A stretch of DNA of 43,620 nucleotides from positions 169,105 through 212,724 of the forward strand of contig JAPKZD010000014.1 in NCBI GenBank assembly GCA_026393975.1, written 5' to 3'. Numbering within the stretch: the first letter of the stretch is position 1; the number at the start of each line of letters is the position of its first letter. The position numbers and the translations under genes are program-made. Shown here piece after piece: positions 26,473 through 35,177 of this stretch. The DNA is from Candidatus Aminicenantota bacterium (GTDB taxonomy: Bacteria; Acidobacteriota; Aminicenantia; Aminicenantales; Saccharicenantaceae). The notes under the pieces were generated by a model, which was not told the origin of the DNA, did not search any database, and was given only the letters and a program-made list of their open reading frames with translations.

Positions 26473-27216
26473 TCACTCCCAGCGAAAGGCTTTGGCCGAG
26501 ACGGCGACCCCGAGAACGAGAAGCCCGGCCAGGACGGCGATCTCAAGCAGGTGCTTGCCGAGGGGGTTCCCGATCCAGAGCCCTTGGAGGAGATTGACGA
26601 CATGCGTGAGCGGGATGAACTTGCTGACGGCCTTTACGGCCGGGGGAAAGATCTGTTTGGGGATGGTCGCCCCGGACAGGAAGAGGTTCGGGAAGTAGAG
26701 GACCATGCCTAGGATATTCGCGGCCCGGGCCGTCCGGGCCACGCTGGCCAGGAGGAAGCCCACGGCGAAGAAGCTCAGACAACTCAGAGTGAAACCGAGC
26801 AGGACGTCCAGGGGCCGGCCTTCGAAACGGAGGCCGAAGACAAGACGGGCGGAGGCGATGAGCAGGACCCCGCCGAAGAGCGTCATCAGGAAGTTAACGA
26901 TGACCTGGGAGGCCAGGACGGCCGCCGGCCGGAGCGGTGTCGCCCGATAGCGGCGGAGCACGCCCTTCTCCCTGTTGCTGCTGACCGTGATGGCCATCGA
27001 CATGAGCCCCGTCGAACCGATGATCATGGCCAGGTAGGCCGGCGTGCTGACGTCGACCATGCCCCGGTTGCCGAAGAACGGGTTGGGTGTGTTGCCGTAG
27101 ATGCTGCCGAAGAGGAAAAGGAGCAGCATGGGGAAGACAAGCGTAAAGAAGGCGGCTTCGGGCTGGCGAAGATAGAGCTTGATCTCGACCCAGGCGAGTT
27201 TCCAGAAGCCTTTCAT
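26473..27216 (-). CDS. ABC-2 type transporter permease
   Basis: A 247-aa integral membrane protein with about six helices; it begins FWKLAWVEIKLYLRQPEAAFFTLVFP in the normal ABC-2 way and carries the C-terminal LPNLFLSGATIPKQIFPPAVK, close to the 'pl.flSG.ifP...lP' motif of exporters. It overlaps the ATPase gene by four bases and ispH starts seven bases after it. The substrate is unknown; synteny with isoprenoid genes may suggest an isoprenoid-linked export. Confidence 0.9.
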   Translation of the reverse strand: MKGFWKLAWVEIKLYLRQPEAAFFTLVFPMLLLFLFGSIYGNTPNPFFGNRGMVDVSTPAYLAMIIGSTGLMSMAITVSSNREKGVLRRYRATPLRPAAVLASQVIVNFLMTLFGGVLLIASARLVFGLRFEGRPLDVLLGFTLSCLSFFAVGFLLASVARTARAANILGMVLYFPNLFLSGATIPKQIFPPAVKAVSKFIPLTHVVNLLQGLWIGNPLGKHLLEIAVLAGLLVLGVAVSAKAFRWE

Positions 27217-28148
27217 CGCAATCCTCCGTCGAGGCCGGATTCCGCGGTCAGGGCGAGGAAGACGTCCTCCAGGTCAGGCTGTTCGGTGCGCAGGTCCCGA
27301 AAGCGTGCGCCAGCGGCGTCCAGGGCGTTGACGACGACGACGATGAGGCGGTCGCCCTGCCCGGCGACGATGACCTTTTCCCCGTTCTTCTCGACGCGGG
27401 CGACGCCCGGCAGACTCCGGAGCGGCGCGGGATCGAAGCCGGGCTCGGCGGTGAATAGGATCCGTATCTCGCTCCTGAGGCCCCGGACGAGGTTGGCCGG
27501 CGAATCCAAGGCGACGATGCGGCCGTGGTCGATGACTAGGACCCGGTCGCAGAGGTGCTCGGCCTCCTCCATGTAATGGGTCGTCAGGAAGACGGTCTTT
27601 CCCCTTTCGCGGATGGCCCGGATGAGGTCCCACATGGAGCGCCGGGCATGGGGGTCAAGCCCGGTCGTCAGCTCGTCGAGGAAGACGAGCTCGGGGTCGT
27701 TGACCAGGGCCAGGGCGATGAAGAGGCGCTGTTTCTGCCCGCCGGAGAGCTTGGAGAAACGGGCGTTTCTCTTGTCGGCGATCTCCAGCCGGTCGAGAAG
27801 CGGCTGCCAGGCCGCCGGCTTCCGGTAATAGGAGGCGAAGAGGTCGAGGGCCTCCCAGACTCTCATGTCGTCGGGCAGGGCGCTCTGCTGGAGCTGGACG
27901 CCGGTCCTTTCGCGGAGCTCCTGGCCGTCCTTGCGGGGGTCGAGGCCGAGGACGCGGACGACTCCGCCGTCGGGGAAGCGCATGCCCTCGAGGCATTCGA
28001 TCGTCGTCGTCTTGCCTGCGCCGTTGGGCCCGACCATGCCGAAGATCTCCCCCGTGCCGACTTTGAAGCTGATGCCGTCGACGGCCCTGAGCCGGCCGTA
28101 GGATTTGGCCAGGGATTCGATTTCGATCGCCGGGGTCGCTGAGGGCAT
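27213..28148 (-). CDS. ABC-2 type transporter ATPase
   Basis: A 311-aa ATPase: Walker A GPNGAGKTT (40-48), signature LSGGQKQR (134-141), Walker B VFLDELTTGLD and switch His in TTHYMEE. The residue after the catalytic Glu is Leu rather than the common Pro (DELTTG), which is tolerated in this family. The C-terminal extension of about 90 residues is typical of the CcmA/DrrA group. It heads the operon ATPase, permease, ispH, polyprenyl synthase. Confidence 0.93.
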   Translation of the reverse strand: MPSATPAIEIESLAKSYGRLRAVDGISFKVGTGEIFGMVGPNGAGKTTTIECLEGMRFPDGGVVRVLGLDPRKDGQELRERTGVQLQQSALPDDMRVWEALDLFASYYRKPAAWQPLLDRLEIADKRNARFSKLSGGQKQRLFIALALVNDPELVFLDELTTGLDPHARRSMWDLIRAIRERGKTVFLTTHYMEEAEHLCDRVLVIDHGRIVALDSPANLVRGLRSEIRILFTAEPGFDPAPLRSLPGVARVEKNGEKVIVAGQGDRLIVVVVNALDAAGARFRDLRTEQPDLEDVFLALTAESGLDGGLR

Positions 28149-28278: not shown

Positions 28279-30156
28279 ATGAAACACTTTTCCGTGAAGA
28301 CCGGAACGGTCTGGATGCTTTTGACTCTCGGGGCCGCGATCGCGGCGTTCGCTTGGGCGGCCCAATCCGGCCAGGCACCTGCTGCGGCGCCCGAGTTCTC
28401 CGAGACACGGGCGATGATCCCGATGCGGGACGGCGTGAAGCTCCACACGGTCATCTTTGTGCCGAAAAACGCTCCGCCGCCCCTGCCTTTCCTGATCATG
28501 AGGACGCCCTACCCCCGGCCCCTGATGTCAGAGTCCTATAAGGAGCTCGTCGACGAGGGCTACATCTTCGTCTATCAGGATATCCGCGGACGCTACAAGT
28601 CCGAGGGACAATTCGTCATGCAGCGGCCGCCGCGCGACAAGCGCGACCCCCGGGCCATCGACGAGAGCACGGACGCCTACGACACCGTCGAATGGCTGTT
28701 GGCGAACATTCCGGGCCACAACGGCCGGGCCGGCCTGATGGGCATCTCCTACGGCGGCTGGCTGACGGCCATGGCCATGCTCGACCCGCATCCGGCCGTG
28801 AAGGCCGTCTCGCCCCAGGCCCCTCCGGCGGACATGTATCTGGGCGACGACTTCCACCACAACGGGGCCTTCCGTTTGAGCTACGGCTTCGAGTACGCGG
28901 CGAGGATGGAAACCACCAAGGAGGACGCGTCGTTCCGGTTCGACGCGTTCGACACGTACGAGTGGTACCTGCGGCTCGGCCCGCTGTCGACGGTGAACGA
29001 GAAATACCTTCTTGGAAAGATCCCGACCTGGAACGATTACATCGCCCACCCGAACTACGACGCGTTTTGGCAAAAGCAGGCGATGGCCCCCTACCTGACC
29101 CGGGTCGCGGTCCCGACCCTGAACGTCGCCGGCTGGTGGGACCAGGAGGATTTCTACGGACCGCAGAAGATCTACGAGACGCTCGAGCCCCTCGACCGCG
29201 GGGAGATGAGCTTTTTCGTCGCCGGCCCGTGGAGCCACGGCGGCTGGATGCAGACCGACGGGAGCTCGCTGGGGCGGATCAAGTTCGGCGGCAACACCTC
29301 GAAATATTTCCGGGAGAAGATCCAGGCCCCGTTCTTCGCCCATTACTTGAAGGGCAAACCCGGCTGGAACATTCCGGAGGCGGTCACGTTCGAGACGGGG
29401 ACCAACGCCTGGCAGGTCTACGACGAATGGCCGCCCCGCAACCTGACCGAGGATCGCGGCCTCTACTTCCGGGAGGACGGCCGGTTGTCGTTCGAAGCTC
29501 CCGCGACGGAGGACGACCGGGCTTTCGACAGCTACGTTTCCGATCCCTCCCGGCCCGTGCCCTACCGGCCGCGGCCGATAGAGGCGACCTACGATCCGCG
29601 AGGCTCCGGCTGGAGAACGTGGCTCGTCGGCGACCAGCGCTTCGTCCATCTTCGGCCGGACGTCCTGAGTTGGGAAACGGAGCCGCTCGTCGAAGACATC
29701 ACCGTCACCGGGCGGATCGTGGCGCGTCTGTTCGCCTCGACCACGGGAACGGACAGCGACTGGATCGTAAAACTGATCGACGTCTATCCCGAGGACGTGC
29801 CCGCCGAGCCGGCCATGGGCGGCTACCAGCTGATGATCGCCAACGAGGTTTTCCGCGGCCGGTTCCGGTCGAGCTTCGAGAAGCCCGAGGCCCTCGTCCC
29901 GGACCGCGTCACGGACTTCACCATCGACCTCCACGCGGCCGACCACCGTTTTCTCAAGGGCCACAAGATCATGGTCCAGGTCCAGAGCACTTGGTTCCCC
30001 CTCATCGACCGCAACCCGCAGACCTTCGTCGAGAACATCTTCCTGGCCAAGGCCTCGGATTACCGGTCGGCCACCCAGCGCGTCTTCAGGTCCAAAGAGC
30101 ACCCGTCGCACATCGTCCTGCCGGTCCGGACGCGTCAGAATGTATCGCGGAAGTAA
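28279..30156 (+). CDS. Secreted CocE/NonD-family hydrolase (X-Pro dipeptidyl-peptidase S15 fold)
   Basis: A 625-aa exported alpha/beta hydrolase. Signal peptide 1 to about 28; the nucleophile is Ser157 in GISYGG, the acid Asp is in AGWWDQED (near 289) and the His is in AGPWSHGGW (near 325). A C-terminal jelly-roll domain (about 400-610, DITVTGRIVARLFASTTGTDSDW) completes the alpha-amino-acid ester hydrolase/CocE layout. It likely cleaves amino-acyl esters or dipeptides in the periplasm; the substrate is unknown. Its 3' end overlaps the converging SDR gene by 22 bases. Confidence 0.92.
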   Translation: MKHFSVKTGTVWMLLTLGAAIAAFAWAAQSGQAPAAAPEFSETRAMIPMRDGVKLHTVIFVPKNAPPPLPFLIMRTPYPRPLMSESYKELVDEGYIFVYQDIRGRYKSEGQFVMQRPPRDKRDPRAIDESTDAYDTVEWLLANIPGHNGRAGLMGISYGGWLTAMAMLDPHPAVKAVSPQAPPADMYLGDDFHHNGAFRLSYGFEYAARMETTKEDASFRFDAFDTYEWYLRLGPLSTVNEKYLLGKIPTWNDYIAHPNYDAFWQKQAMAPYLTRVAVPTLNVAGWWDQEDFYGPQKIYETLEPLDRGEMSFFVAGPWSHGGWMQTDGSSLGRIKFGGNTSKYFREKIQAPFFAHYLKGKPGWNIPEAVTFETGTNAWQVYDEWPPRNLTEDRGLYFREDGRLSFEAPATEDDRAFDSYVSDPSRPVPYRPRPIEATYDPRGSGWRTWLVGDQRFVHLRPDVLSWETEPLVEDITVTGRIVARLFASTTGTDSDWIVKLIDVYPEDVPAEPAMGGYQLMIANEVFRGRFRSSFEKPEALVPDRVTDFTIDLHAADHRFLKGHKIMVQVQSTWFPLIDRNPQTFVENIFLAKASDYRSATQRVFRSKEHPSHIVLPVRTRQNVSRK

Positions 30157-31127
30157 GTCCAGCCGTCGCGGATGGTCTTTTCCGCGTCGATGTAGGTGTG
30201 GTCGAATTCCCGGCGGCTCTTGGCGTTGTCGTAGTAGGCCGTCCAGCCGCTTAACCGGCCGTAGGCGGACGTCAGCAGAGGTCGCTTGCCCGTCCTCCGG
30301 CTGGTCCGCTCGAGGATGTGGCCGGCCGTGGCGAGCAGGGGACTCGGGATGGGGAAGGGGTAGGCCCTTCGGCCGCAAGCCCGGCTGATCCGCCGGACGA
30401 CCTCCCGGTAGGTCAGGTTGGCCCCGACGACGAGATAGCTTTCGCCGTCGCGGCCCCGGCCTTCAAGGGTCTTGAGGATGAGCGCGACGAGGTCGCGGAC
30501 ATCGACGATAGCCAGTCCGCCGGCGAAGGAGCCAAAAAAAGGGCTGCGCGAGATCCTCCGGTAGAGCTCGTTATGCGGCGTCGCCGGGTTATGGTCGCCC
30601 GGACCCATGATCGAGGCCGGGTTGAGAATGACGGCCCGCAGGCCGCGCTCGCGGACGGCCTTTTCGACGATGTCCTGCCCGCGGCGTTTCGAGGCCATGT
30701 AGAGGATGTCCTCCGGCCAATTGAAAAGCGTCGTCTCGTCGGCCGGCTGTCCCGACTCGTGAAACCCGACGGCCCCGACGGAAGAAATATGGATGAGGCG
30801 CTCGACCCCCGCCGCAAGCGAGGCCTCGACCATCGCCCGGGCGCCGTCCTCGTTGACTTTCCGCAGCCTGTCCTCGTCCCCCCTCCAGTAGGAGATGAAG
30901 CCGGCCAGATGGACGACGTGGCCGTGGCCGCTGACGGCCGCACGGACGGCCGCGGTGTCGGCGATGTCTCCCTCTAACGTCTTGACTCCGGAGGTGCTCC
31001 ACGTCGCAGGGATCTTGTCCCCGGGGAGAACGAACGCGGAGACGGCGTCAGCGCCATAGCGGCCGACGAGTGCCGGCATGAGGACGGCGCCGACGAATCC
31101 TGTCGCCCCGGTGACGAGGACCTTCAC
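30135..31127 (-). CDS. Extended SDR (NAD-dependent epimerase/dehydratase family), third of the operon
   Basis: A 330-aa Rossmann enzyme: nucleotide-binding GATGFVG at 7-13, HLAG after strand 4, SSVGAVG, and the catalytic YMASK (YxxxK). The C-terminal half binds the substrate. The closest styles known to me are the HpnA-like, dihydroflavonol-reductase-like and 3beta-HSD-like extended SDRs, so a sugar-lipid or hydroxy-lipid substrate is possible. Last gene of an overlapping five-gene set; its start overlaps the CPBP stop by four bases. Confidence 0.9.
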   Translation of the reverse strand: MKVLVTGATGFVGAVLMPALVGRYGADAVSAFVLPGDKIPATWSTSGVKTLEGDIADTAAVRAAVSGHGHVVHLAGFISYWRGDEDRLRKVNEDGARAMVEASLAAGVERLIHISSVGAVGFHESGQPADETTLFNWPEDILYMASKRRGQDIVEKAVRERGLRAVILNPASIMGPGDHNPATPHNELYRRISRSPFFGSFAGGLAIVDVRDLVALILKTLEGRGRDGESYLVVGANLTYREVVRRISRACGRRAYPFPIPSPLLATAGHILERTSRRTGKRPLLTSAYGRLSGWTAYYDNAKSRREFDHTYIDAEKTIRDGWTYFRDTF

Positions 31128-31831
31128 GGTCTCCCCGGGCCGCGGCGGAGGAAGAGGAAAGTGTCCGTGGCGATCCCCGTCACGGCGTGCAGAATAAACG
31201 TGTAGAGGAATGAACCCGTGGCGTAGGCGATCATTCCGAAGACGAGCCCCGCCCCGGCCGCGGCAAAGACTTCGGTGTCGGGATGCCCGACATGGAGGAG
31301 CGTCGAGATCGCCGTCTGGATGGCCAGCGCCGGAATAAGCCCAACCGCCGGGACGAGCGGCAGAAAAAGGACTCCGCGGAAGACGAATTCCCAGGGGAGA
31401 TAATAGAGGAAGAGATAGGACAATTCATAACCCACGAAGGTCCGGACGCTGCCGCACGCCGCCTTGGCGAACGGATACATCTTTTGCATCTCCGGGTCCC
31501 GGGAGCCGATGAACCCGGCCAGGACGGCCAGCGGCAGTCCCGCCCCGGCGAGTGCAAATCCCAGGCCGGCCCGCCCGAATGTCCAGCCGAAGGAGGCCAG
31601 AACGGCCCACGGCCCGGACGAGGTCAGGAATACGAGGAAACAGGGTACGGCCAGCAGAAGGACGGAAAAGACGACGAAATACCGGTGGACGGCGGCGAGC
31701 TCGTCTCTTGTCCTGCGCAGGTTGCGGAAATGAACGACGGTGGCGAGAAACGTCAGGGCAATGGCTAGTTCCAGGTAAACGAGCGCCAAGGGGACGGACG
31801 GACCGGCCGCCTTCTCAAACCATGTTGCCAT
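31124..31831 (-). CDS. CPBP-like intramembrane metalloprotease family protein
   Basis: A 235-aa protein with about seven membrane helices. The YLPWEFVFRG segment corresponds to motif 1 (EExxxR, here only one Glu), TLLHVGHP to motif 2 and FILHAVTG to motif 3 His. These match the CPBP (Rce1/CAAX protease-like) family, although the first motif is reduced. In bacteria such proteins process or protect membrane proteins or act in prenyl/lipid contexts. It sits inside an operon of lipid-type enzymes, overlapping the SDR upstream by 17 bases and the next by four. Confidence 0.78.
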   Translation of the reverse strand: MATWFEKAAGPSVPLALVYLELAIALTFLATVVHFRNLRRTRDELAAVHRYFVVFSVLLLAVPCFLVFLTSSGPWAVLASFGWTFGRAGLGFALAGAGLPLAVLAGFIGSRDPEMQKMYPFAKAACGSVRTFVGYELSYLFLYYLPWEFVFRGVLFLPLVPAVGLIPALAIQTAISTLLHVGHPDTEVFAAAGAGLVFGMIAYATGSFLYTFILHAVTGIATDTFLFLRRGPGRP

Positions 31832-32816
31832 TCCGCTTCTCCTTTAAGTACCAGTCGACGACCTCGGCGAACTGGCGCTCGAAGTCGTCGTCGGGCTTAT
31901 ACCCAAGCTCGGCGACCGCCCGGGAAATGTCGTAGGTCGTTTCGGTCGTGATGCGCTTGATCCGGTAATAGTTCAGCCGGCGCTTGAAACGGGGGAGGAT
32001 GGCGGCGAGCAGGCGAGATACTCCTGAAGCGACATAGGCGAGCCGGATGGGGACATAAATCCTCTGTTTCCTTCCCAGTCCTTTCTGAAGGGCCTGGAAG
32101 AAATCACGCCAGGTCGGGAGCGTGTCGTTCGTCACCGTGTAGGACTTCCCCTCGATCCCCTCTTTGACCAGGGTTAGCTCCACGGCCTGGCAGAGGTTTC
32201 CGACATGACAGTAGCCGAAGCGCCAGCGGCCGTGCCCGACGATAAGGGGCGCGCCCCGCTCGCATTCCCTGAGGATGTTGGCGCAAGTCACGCGGTCGTT
32301 TGGCCCGAAGACGTCGCCGGGCCTGAGGATGACGGCGGGAAAGCCCCTGCCCGCATGCTGGTCGCGGAGCTCGTTCTCCGTCCGGATCTTGTGGCGCACG
32401 TAAGGCAGGAACACCGCCGACTTGCCGGGCCTATCCTCCGCGATGTCCCGGCGGCCGAAGCCGAGGGTCAGGGCCGTCGAGATGTAAACGAAGCGCCGGA
32501 GGGGCGCGCCGGAATCCCGGAGCCTTCGGATGAAATTCCGGGTCTGGTCGAAGATGTTCTGAGCGCAATCCTCGTCGCAGGCCATGTCGGAAACGAGCGC
32601 GGCGGCGTGGACGATGTGCGTCGTCCCGGCCGGCAGGTCGATTTTTTCGGGGAAACGGAGATCGCCCTTGATGAGCCGGACGTCGAGCCCGGCCAGGAAA
32701 TGGAGGTCCGAGGATTCCCGGACGAGAGCGTCGACCTCCCAGCCCCGTTCCAAGAACCAGCGGCAGAGGTTGGAGCCGATGAAGCCGTTGGCGCCGGTGA
32801 TCAGGACGCGGCTCAC
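31815..32816 (-). CDS. Extended SDR (NAD-dependent epimerase/dehydratase family), second of the operon
   Basis: A 333-aa enzyme starting with GTG at 32816, whose GTGA overlaps the TGA of the PAP2 gene. It shows GANGFIG near the N-terminus, HAAALVSD, STALTLG and the active-site YVRHK (YxxxK). A motif-rich C-terminus (TVTNDTLPTWRDFFQAL) is that of extended SDRs. It differs from its two paralogs in this operon by more than a recent copy would, so they probably do different steps. Confidence 0.9.
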   Translation of the reverse strand: MSRVLITGANGFIGSNLCRWFLERGWEVDALVRESSDLHFLAGLDVRLIKGDLRFPEKIDLPAGTTHIVHAAALVSDMACDEDCAQNIFDQTRNFIRRLRDSGAPLRRFVYISTALTLGFGRRDIAEDRPGKSAVFLPYVRHKIRTENELRDQHAGRGFPAVILRPGDVFGPNDRVTCANILRECERGAPLIVGHGRWRFGYCHVGNLCQAVELTLVKEGIEGKSYTVTNDTLPTWRDFFQALQKGLGRKQRIYVPIRLAYVASGVSRLLAAILPRFKRRLNYYRIKRITTETTYDISRAVAELGYKPDDDFERQFAEVVDWYLKEKRNGNMV

Positions 32817-33730
32817 GAAGTGTCTCCGGGCCTGCCGTCGTTTAACCGGCTCCAGGCCCCCGTGATAGCGGGCGCGGCGAGGAGGACTAGCACGGCCGCG
32901 GCGATACCGATGACCATGTCGGAGAGGTAGTGGAAGCGGCCGTAGACCGTGGAGACGTAGAGAGACAGGATGACCGGGGCGAGAAACCAGAAACCCCGGC
33001 GCGTGTACTTCAAGGACATGAACCACATGACCGTGGCCACGGCGCAATGGGGGCTGGGGATCGTCCCGCCGGCGGCATGGACATGCGACCGGATGTACTC
33101 GGCCACGGAGGCGAAGACGCCACCCCGGAGGGGCTCGGTCAGAAGGACGCGCACCTTCTCTAAGCGCATGGGGCCGGCCACGGGAAAGAGGATGAAGCCC
33201 AGGCCGCAGACGAGGTTGATCAGGCCCAGCTGGAAGAGATAATCCTCGTTCGCCTCCTCGCCGCGCCGGAAGAAGATGACCGCGCCCAGGATGGGGTAGA
33301 TGACGATATAGACAACGTAGACGAAGAACATCCACTCCGTCAGCGGCGGCGTGTAGAGCTTCTGGATCCAGACGAGCGGCTGGAGGCCGAAGGCCGCCGT
33401 CTCCCAGGCGATGACGCGATCGTCGTTCCAGTTGAAGAAGATGAGCTGGAGGCCGCGGCCCGCCAGGAATATCTGGAGATACATGAGCTGGACGGAGGCC
33501 GTCCGCAGAAGAAACCGGAGCACTTTCGGCCGGAGGCGCCGCAGGATGAGAAGGGTCAGGATGTAGAGGACGATGGCGAGGAGGTTCCTGCCGATGAAGG
33601 CGAGCGGCCTGTCGAGGCGCCCGTTGAAAACGGCGGCCAGGAAGAGGAAAAAGCCGAGCCCGCCGAGGATGACGGCGTCGGTCAGCCGGAGCTCGAGTCC
33701 AGCCAAGGAGAGCCGCTTGGACCCCATCAC
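32813..33730 (-). CDS. PAP2-superfamily membrane protein (Aur1/inositolphosphotransferase-like)
   Basis: A 305-aa protein with about eight membrane helices. The PAP2 motifs are IPSPH (224-228, conserved His228) and GRFHYLSD (264-271, with Arg, His and Asp). The spacing and the 'GGTIPS.H' form are those of the Aur1/PAP2_3 subgroup, which includes inositol phosphorylceramide synthases and other lipid head-group transferases as well as phosphatases. In an operon with three SDRs it probably acts on a diphosphate or phospholipid substrate. It overlaps both neighbours by four bases. Confidence 0.88.
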   Translation of the reverse strand: MMGSKRLSLAGLELRLTDAVILGGLGFFLFLAAVFNGRLDRPLAFIGRNLLAIVLYILTLLILRRLRPKVLRFLLRTASVQLMYLQIFLAGRGLQLIFFNWNDDRVIAWETAAFGLQPLVWIQKLYTPPLTEWMFFVYVVYIVIYPILGAVIFFRRGEEANEDYLFQLGLINLVCGLGFILFPVAGPMRLEKVRVLLTEPLRGGVFASVAEYIRSHVHAAGGTIPSPHCAVATVMWFMSLKYTRRGFWFLAPVILSLYVSTVYGRFHYLSDMVIGIAAAVLVLLAAPAITGAWSRLNDGRPGDTS

Positions 33731-34731
33731 GCCTCCTCCTTCCGTCCGGCGCGGCCCCGTCTCCCGAGCCGGGACTCTTCAACGGCCCGCCGGACCGATT
33801 CGCGCAGGCCGTATCTTGGATGAAAGCCGAGCTCACGCTCGATTTTCGATCCGTCGTAGATCCAAAAATGGTCCCGGGCCGCCCGGACGATCTCCCGGGT
33901 CAAGAGGGGAGGCTTCCGGCCGAGACGGGCGGCCGTTTCGGCCAGCCGAGCGGCCAGGATCTGGATGCCGAAGGGGACCTTGATCATGAACCGCTTGACG
34001 CCGAGCTCTTCGGCGATCGCCGCCGTGATCTCGGGCCAGGCGTAGGCCCGGCCGTCGGTGACGAAATATGTCCGGCCAACGCTCCGGGGATTTTCCGCCG
34101 CGAGGAGCAGGGCTTCGACGAGATCGTCGACGTCGATGAGACTCGTCCGCGGCCGGCCGTCGCCGAGGGCCGGAACGAGTCTTTTCCGGAGGAGTCCGAC
34201 GGCCCGCTCGATCTCCTTCGAGCCCGGCCCGAGCACGTTCGGCGGCCGGACGATCGTCACCGGCATCCTGGCCCCCGCCTCCAGGACGATGCGCTCGGCG
34301 GCGAGCTTGCTCCGGCCGTAGGCCGACACCGGCCGGGGTTCGTCGTCTTCGGTCAGGGCCTTCCCGTCCGGGCTCGGTCCCGCGGCGGCGATGCTCGAGA
34401 CGAAGACGAACCGCTTGACGCCGGGCGCAGCTTGGAGGCAGGCGTCGACGAGATTCCGCGTTCCCAGCGCGTTGTCTGTTTCGAAAGCCGGCCCGTCGAT
34501 TGCCTGGATGACCCCGGCCAGGTGGAAGATATGATCCCTGCCCTTGACGGCGTGGACGAGGGAGGCGGCGTCGCCGAGGTCGCCGAGGACGAATTCGACC
34601 GGCAGGTCCCTGAGCGGTGCGGTCTTGCTCGTCCGACGGACGAGACAGGCGGTCTCGTGGCCGCGGCGGGCCAATTCCATGACCAGACGCCGGCCGATGA
34701 ACCCGCTGGCCCCCGTGACGAGGGCTCTCAT
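33727..34731 (-). CDS. Extended SDR (NAD-dependent epimerase/dehydratase family), first of the operon
   Basis: A 334-aa enzyme with GASGFIG at 7-13, HLAGVIQ, SSIAAAG and YGRSK as the catalytic Tyr/Lys. It heads the operon SDR, PAP2, SDR, CPBP, SDR, in which every junction overlaps by 4-17 bases, so the five proteins are likely made in a fixed ratio. A promoter TTTTCT-N17-TAGAAT lies upstream with a leader of about 50 bases. Confidence 0.9.
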   Translation of the reverse strand: MRALVTGASGFIGRRLVMELARRGHETACLVRRTSKTAPLRDLPVEFVLGDLGDAASLVHAVKGRDHIFHLAGVIQAIDGPAFETDNALGTRNLVDACLQAAPGVKRFVFVSSIAAAGPSPDGKALTEDDEPRPVSAYGRSKLAAERIVLEAGARMPVTIVRPPNVLGPGSKEIERAVGLLRKRLVPALGDGRPRTSLIDVDDLVEALLLAAENPRSVGRTYFVTDGRAYAWPEITAAIAEELGVKRFMIKVPFGIQILAARLAETAARLGRKPPLLTREIVRAARDHFWIYDGSKIERELGFHPRYGLRESVRRAVEESRLGRRGRAGRKEEA

Positions 34732-34871: not shown

Positions 34872-35177
34872 ATGAAAAAGGCCGCGGTCATCGCTTTCGT
34901 CATATTCTTCGCCGTCGGCATGTTCCATTATTTCTACGCCGAGGACCACTGCCCGGTGCACTGCCCTTCGAGAGGCGGTGGATTCGGCCACGTCCACCAA
35001 CACCACGGGGGCGCGTTGATCTGCCTCTGCTTTTGGAGCTCGCTCTTCGGCCCGGAAACGGACGACTTTGCCCGTGACATGGACTTCCGGATCATGAGAG
35101 CCCCGGACGAAGCGACCCGCCTGCGCGGCCCCCTGGGCGCCGACATCGCCCACCCCCCGAAATCCTCCCTCGTCTGA
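34872..35177 (+). CDS. Small exported His/Cys-rich protein of a metal-efflux operon
   Basis: A 101-aa protein with an N-terminal hydrophobic segment (5-18, signal or anchor) and a cluster of possible metal ligands between residues 26 and 53: His26, Cys27, His30, Cys31, His40, His42, His44, His45, Cys51 and Cys53. I do not recognise a family. It lies 45 bases before the TolC-like gene of the RND metal pump and has the operon promoter directly in front. I infer a periplasmic metal-binding accessory or sensor. Confidence 0.75.
   Translation: MKKAAVIAFVIFFAVGMFHYFYAEDHCPVHCPSRGGGFGHVHQHHGGALICLCFWSSLFGPETDDFARDMDFRIMRAPDEATRLRGPLGADIAHPPKSSLV

Follow-up and report, generated by a model that had tools for sequence, protein, structure and literature searches.

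A conserved five-gene operon of Aminicenantes combines an Aur1-like PAP2 protein, an altered CPBP membrane protein and three extended SDRs, with a possible role in sphingolipid-type membrane lipids

What does an operon do in which three extended short-chain dehydrogenases/reductases (SDRs) alternate with two membrane proteins? This question is raised by a stretch of 43,620 nucleotides from a Candidatus Aminicenantota bacterium (hereafter the window; contig JAPKZD010000014.1 of assembly GCA_026393975.1, in our numbering C5:169105-212724; the assembly comprises 2.95 Mb and is 95% complete). Open reading frame analysis gives a transcription order on the minus strand of SDR_A, PAP2, SDR_B, CPBP and SDR_C, with successive junctions overlapping by 4, 4, 17 and 4 bases (Table 1), and the domain calls for all five products are backed by both Pfam and NCBIfam. 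Genes, order and overlaps are all as given in a preliminary description of the window, which reported a five-gene operon with overlaps of 4-17 bases and proposed a role in membrane lipids. We find that the operon is real, conserved and unnamed, that it is the Aminicenantes form of a CPBP-PAP2-SDR module found across phyla, and that a membrane-lipid role is probable. Our preferred reading, which we hold with even confidence, is that the operon serves the synthesis or modification of a sphingolipid-type membrane lipid, as a satellite of a sphingolipid-type pathway. The gene overlaps suggest one translationally coupled operon, for which we infer co-transcription.

Sixteen related genomes, spread over three families of the order, carry all five genes in this arrangement (L068, where a contig end cuts SDR_A, is counted among them), and so it is not peculiar to this genome. 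The same five-gene order is also observed in L240, a genome from a further family of the class, and in additional Aminicenantes loci. The overlap set of -4/-4/-17/-4 is repeated exactly in several relatives, down to ~60% protein identity, and this recurrence, together with the order kept in 16 relatives, argues that chance is not the explanation. The flanking genes (ispH, polyprenyl synthase, CocE, ABC and RND efflux) are largely constant inside the genus and not between families, and thus the unit consists of the five genes only; ispH, polyprenyl synthase, CocE and the ABC genes were considered as members and rejected because they are confined to the genus. Some copies are broken: L062 has both SDR_B and SDR_C in pieces, L069 has a damaged SDR_B, and a stop interrupts PAP2 in L028 and in the second G003 copy (G003:C12:903858). 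These cases may represent assembly errors or real decay.

Table 1. Genes of the five-gene operon, with coordinates in the window.
Gene	Coordinates	Strand	Description
SDR_A	33727..34731	-	first operon gene; extended SDR, 334 aa
PAP2	32813..33730	-	PAP2_3, Aur1-like membrane protein, 305 aa; GTG start, alternative ATG at 33727
SDR_B	31815..32816	-	extended SDR, 333 aa; clade long-branched, specific to the five-gene operon
CPBP	31124..31831	-	CPBP/Rce1-like membrane protein, 235 aa
SDR_C	30135..31127	-	last operon gene; extended SDR, 330 aa

By scanning 84,980 species with a PAP2 profile and then screening the neighbourhoods, we observe the CPBP-PAP2 pair with one different SDR in at least five groups beyond the carriers of the five-gene operon. 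The arrangement SDR-CPBP-PAP2 on one strand occurs in Ignavibacteria and Bacteroidota, Thermoanaerobaculia and other Acidobacteriota, Myxococcota, Zixibacteria and a Verrucomicrobia metagenome-assembled genome. In Saccharicenans, PAP2 faces a convergent SDR-CPBP pair, and genes for OsmC and a DAGK-type lipid kinase lie close by. All module PAP2s fall into a single CPBP-associated clade in our tree (97/90), with the five-gene PAP2s nested inside it. The SDR of the simple modules resolves as a fourth clade, apart from SDR_A, SDR_B and SDR_C, and is therefore rejected as an orthologue of any of the three. From the trees and the neighbourhoods, CPBP and PAP2 emerge as the constant pair, while the SDR content is variable. 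A search of a plasmid collection returned no PAP2 homologue. As a separate observation, the lipid kinase (DAGK/YegS-type) and OsmC adjoin SDR-CPBP and PAP2 in nearly all Saccharicenans and relatives (L150-L164, cluster c5; e.g. L156:9720-10697).

The PAP2 member of this pair has a PAP2_3 match of 57.8 bits in Pfam (cut-off 27), and its AlphaFold model has a pLDDT of 90.8. When the model is compared to the PDB with Foldseek, only 9vj4 and 9ivc (Aur1/inositol phosphorylceramide (IPC) synthase) are retrieved at E<1e-3 (E ~4e-5, TM 0.58), followed by weaker matches to PgpB (5jki, E 0.02) and LpxE (E 0.13). The PAP2 profile aligns with Aur1 across the FPxAxP, PSxH and STxY...HYxxD segments, in an alignment that also includes YodM. 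Among 81 homologues, H228 is invariant, and D271, H267 and T261 are conserved in 80, 79 and 78 sequences, respectively. As in Aur1, a Thr occupies the position of the C3 Arg of PAP phosphatases. The fold match and the motif pattern bear out the earlier description of this protein as Aur1-like, and the Aur1 fold, the His-His-Asp site and the exchange of the C3 Arg for Thr favour, without proving, a transferase. Judging from the model, we consider PAP2 a probable phospho-head-group transferase.

With Aur1/IPC synthases such as fungal Aur1 and Bacteroides BT1522, the protein has in common the closest solved fold, the His-His-Asp site and the FPxAxP and STxY...HYxxD motifs, and SPT-like (serine palmitoyltransferase-like) and inositol-phosphate synthase genes exist in the operon's own genome; however, it is only ~18% identical to Aur1. 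In the Bacteroides BT1522-1526 locus, the Aur1 homologue is paired with the inositol-lipid genes phosphatidylinositol (PI) synthase, myo-inositol-phosphate synthase (MIPS) and GtrA (PMC8791184), whereas the operon carries SDRs and CPBP instead. The likeness to Aur1 and a MIPS locus in the operon's own genome, where MIPS lies beside a CDP-alcohol phosphatidyltransferase, prompted us to consider inositol as a necessary head group. We rejected it because several near-complete, module-bearing relatives lack MIPS (e.g. G004, G009, G052 and G054). The MIPS-containing locus L184 (G000 C2:82000-101500) has a CDP-alcohol phosphatidyltransferase nearest inositol-phosphate lipid synthases, and it also encodes an inositol-1-phosphate cytidylyltransferase-like domain fused to a membrane domain of the lysylphosphatidylglycerol (LPG) synthase/HpnL type.

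The three SDRs match Epimerase/3Beta_HSD in Pfam, and TGxxGxxG and YxxxK are invariant in each aligned orthologue set, taking the forms TGxxGFIG and YGRSK in SDR_A, TGANGF and YxRxK in SDR_B, and TGATGF and YxxSK in SDR_C. They form three anciently separate clades in our tree, and a recent triplication of one SDR is rejected on this basis. The three are thus as divergent as had been described, with their catalytic motifs intact. The accompanying proposal that they perform successive steps of one pathway is not borne out, given the separate clades and two members, SDR_B and SDR_C, that have no assigned reaction. SDR_A is the sister of SDRs from Acidobacteriota SPT clusters (fork 91/91), and its closest paralogue in its own genome is likewise an SPT-adjacent SDR (158 bits; next 82). 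These relationships make SDR_A a likely keto-reductase of a lipid of the sphingoid or ceramide type.

Profile comparisons of the SDRs bear on several known pathways. HpnA, the hopanoid-associated sugar epimerase, is the best NCBIfam match for SDR_A, SDR_B and SDR_C (160, 97 and 182 bits), yet all three scores are far below the cut-off of 367.65; SDR_C is nearest to HpnA-type SDRs in profile searches. A search of the genome for squalene-hopene cyclase (PF13243) gave no match in an assembly that is 95% complete, and on these two grounds a hopanoid pathway is rejected. An OleD-type olefin pathway is rejected as well, because none of the relatives in 149 Acidobacteriota genomes scores above the cut-off for OleD. 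The Caulobacter ceramide pathway consists of Spt, bCerS and CerR, the last of which is NDUFA9-like (PMC11087976). Because SDR_A prefers 3wj7/HpnA-type proteins (145 bits) to NDUFA9 (66 bits), it is not specifically CerR-like, insofar as CerR is judged by its NDUFA9-like description. The genome does contain SPT-like, acyltransferase and SDR components. In Bacteroides, the 31 kDa protein BT_0972 is a 3-ketosphinganine reductase that was picked because it resembles its yeast and human counterparts (PMC9278070). Neither Bacteroides BT1522-1526, Caulobacter Spt/bCerS/CerR nor BT_0972 joins an Aur1-like PAP2 with CPBP and extended SDRs.

A sphingolipid link had previously been set aside for want of an SPT gene. 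Our analysis strengthens the link, as it identifies two SPT-like genes in the genome and homologues of PAP2 and SDR inside SPT clusters elsewhere in the phylum. The two SPT-like proteins are alpha-oxoamine synthases (AOS) with Sphingobacterium SPT as the best solved match (400 and 390 bits, versus 261 and 238 for KBL). One is encoded on the operon contig (C5:16.8 kb, with the operon at C5:199-204 kb); its neighbours are a FabH-type gene and the SDR that is the closest paralogue of SDR_A in the genome. In a set of 396 Acidobacteriota genomes, those from outside Aminicenantia show an association between PAP2 homologues and SPT-like genes (odds ratio 11, p 1.5e-11, with kinship ignored), and in 17/26 of the genomes with both, the two lie 1-5 kb apart. 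The cluster order is SPT-GNAT-SDR-PAP2 or a close variant (e.g. L223, L225 and L229), which looks like a phylum-wide phosphosphingolipid gene cluster. In the Acidobacteriota loci L223, L225 and L227-L234, the clustered genes encode SPT, a GNAT of two domains, an extended SDR and an Aur1-like PAP2. The operon shares with these clusters a homologous SDR (the sister of SDR_A) and a homologous Aur1-like PAP2; it differs in having no SPT or GNAT, in its extra SDR_B, CPBP and SDR_C, and in a PAP2 from the CPBP-associated subclade. A search for the GNAT in about a quarter of the operon's genome, together with regions examined earlier, identifies a protein at C15 ~61.8 kb with 256 bits to the SPT-cluster GNAT profile. 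By its cluster position, the GNAT would be a bCerS-type N-acyltransferase. Among module-bearing genomes of other groups, 31/34 contain SPT-like genes of at least 430 bits, a count made on carriers of the module only.

Several observations weigh against a sphingolipid-type product. Both SPT-like proteins have NF047600 as their best NCBIfam match at ~501 bits, against an equivalog cut-off of 640. The examined flanks contain neither an SPT nor an acyltransferase around the five-gene operon, and no SPT around any CPBP-type module. The CPBP-type PAP2s also form a separate subclade outside the SPT-cluster PAP2s and are never SPT-linked in the examined flanks, so they may act on an acceptor other than the one used by the SPT-cluster enzymes; this lack of linkage is the main reason why our confidence in a sphingolipid-type product goes no further than an even balance. 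Within Aminicenantia, SPT-like genes are present in 46 of ~47 genomes, and because they are near-universal there, PAP2-SPT co-occurrence is uninformative within this class. SPT-positive relatives without the operon exist (G006 and G012), and SDR_B and SDR_C show no link to sphingolipids. A scattered pathway is in itself not unusual, as many SPT-like genes in a Black Sea sphingolipid study lie away from bCerS/CerR (PMC11334938). Our literature search on Aminicenantes and sphingolipids found no paper. The SPT-like matches on plasmids are PKS-type clusters, with no CerR reference among them. On Methylocystis and Thioclava plasmids (L172 and L173), a large gene cluster combines an SPT-like AOS gene with an acyl carrier protein, an AMP ligase, a polyketide synthase (PKS), a phosphoenolpyruvate (PEP)/pyruvate-binding domain protein and RND efflux genes.

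The absence of SPT from the examined flanks of CPBP-type PAP2s is also an argument for a membrane-lipid operon with a non-sphingolipid substrate, in which PAP2 would transfer or remove a phosphate group on a polyprenyl, glycerolipid or other long-chain alcohol, and the SDRs would modify the lipid or an attached sugar. We regard this as the most serious competitor, although clearly less probable than a sphingolipid-type product. The nearby ispH and polyprenyl synthase genes in the genus are consistent with it, as are the breadth of the SDR families, whose solved-structure matches are the uncharacterised oxidoreductase 3wj7 and sugar epimerases, and the lipid kinase beside the Saccharicenans module, which would suit any lipid. 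However, the ispH and polyprenyl synthase neighbours are absent in other families, and the Aur1-specific fold and motifs, together with the SPT linkage of the PAP2 and SDR homologues, argue for acceptors that resemble ceramide. A surface-polysaccharide or glycolipid operon, in which the SDRs would be nucleotide-sugar epimerases or dehydratases and PAP2 would recycle a lipid-phosphate carrier, could explain the matches of each of the SDRs to PF01370 and to structures of sugar epimerases. We consider it unlikely, as no glycosyltransferase, nucleotidyltransferase or flippase is found in the operon or constantly beside it, NCBIfam ranks lipid-associated SDRs (HpnA, SdmB and OleD) above GalE and RmlB for each of the three, and the PAP2 fold is far nearer Aur1 than PgpB or LpxE.

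CPBP, the constant companion of PAP2, is an unusual partner and the most novel part of the operon. It has an Rce1-like match of 33 bits in Pfam (cut-off 22.4), and a fold search of the PDB with this protein gave nothing significant. With the CPBP/type II CAAX proteases (Rce1, MrtX and MrtA), it has in common the Rce1-like domain and the conserved Glu, Arg, His and His; the protein of the operon carries W147-E148-xxx-R152, H180-x-G-x-P-x-x-E187 and H215-xxx-G219. Unlike those proteases, all 59 CPBP homologues examined, which come from several phyla, lack the first Glu of EExxxR, replaced by W, F or Y in 59/59, and the Asn of HxxxN, replaced by Gly in 58/59 and by Ala in 1/59, while the second Glu, the Arg and the two His are invariant. 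Both of the replaced residues are among those described as key in MmRce1 and MrtX (PMC11980579). Because both catalytic residues are replaced in all homologues, a standard glutamic-protease mechanism is unlikely for CPBP. A protein-sorting or lipidation system, with CPBP as a myxosortase-like protease and the other genes making a lipid anchor, is very improbable, since the best NCBIfam match, archaeomyxosortase MrtA, scores 57.7 bits against a cut-off of 200 and the replaced residues reject CPBP as a myxosortase. A different role is suggested by Aur1 itself: Kei1 is the partner of Aur1, and the 9ivc entry is the Aur1-Kei1 complex. By analogy, CPBP may be a membrane partner of PAP2, as Kei1 is for Aur1.

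If the product is a sphingolipid-type lipid, as we prefer, the pathway might proceed as follows. SPT and the GNAT N-acyltransferase, encoded away from the operon, would generate an N-acylated 3-keto long-chain base, and the keto group on such a lipid would be reduced by SDR_A or its SPT-adjacent paralogue. The His-His-Asp site of PAP2 would then move a phospho-head group from a glycerophospholipid to a ceramide-type hydroxyl, with CPBP acting as a membrane partner of this enzyme and not as a standard CAAX protease. SDR_B and SDR_C could carry out further oxidation, reduction or epimerisation of the lipid or its head group. The substrate, the order of reactions and the head group, like the functions given to SDR_B, SDR_C and CPBP, are those that we infer from the comparisons above.

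Around the operon, a convergent gene for a CocE/NonD hydrolase (28279-30156, plus strand) overlaps the 3' end of SDR_C by 22 bases. In the closest relative (L053:14876-15796), the ABC transporter pair of the window (27213-28148 and 26473-27216) seems to be fused or to contain a frameshift. On the other side, a gene at 34872-35177 (plus strand) encodes a small Cys/His-rich protein with no family match; it is kept in the genus, directly upstream of genes for an outer-membrane factor, HlyD and RND efflux. This Cys/His-rich protein may bind metal and act together with the efflux system.

The bacterial route to sphingolipids is well established as far as ceramide, and to our knowledge, the head-group enzymes of most bacterial phyla are not known. 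Across Acidobacteriota, our results tie a family of Aur1-like PAP2 proteins to SPT gene clusters, and they define a cross-phylum CPBP-PAP2-SDR module, which provides a testable gene set for the lipids of uncultured anaerobes. A bolder proposal, which we regard as rather doubtful, is that CPBP serves a bacterial branch of Aur1-like transferases in at least six phyla, either as a dedicated subunit without proteolytic activity or as a new lipid-modifying enzyme, and that the three Aminicenantes SDRs and the CPBP-PAP2 pair together build an undescribed sphingolipid. In CPBP, we observe a conserved relative of CAAX proteases that has an altered active site and is the fixed partner of a lipid enzyme, which would be a new role for this family.

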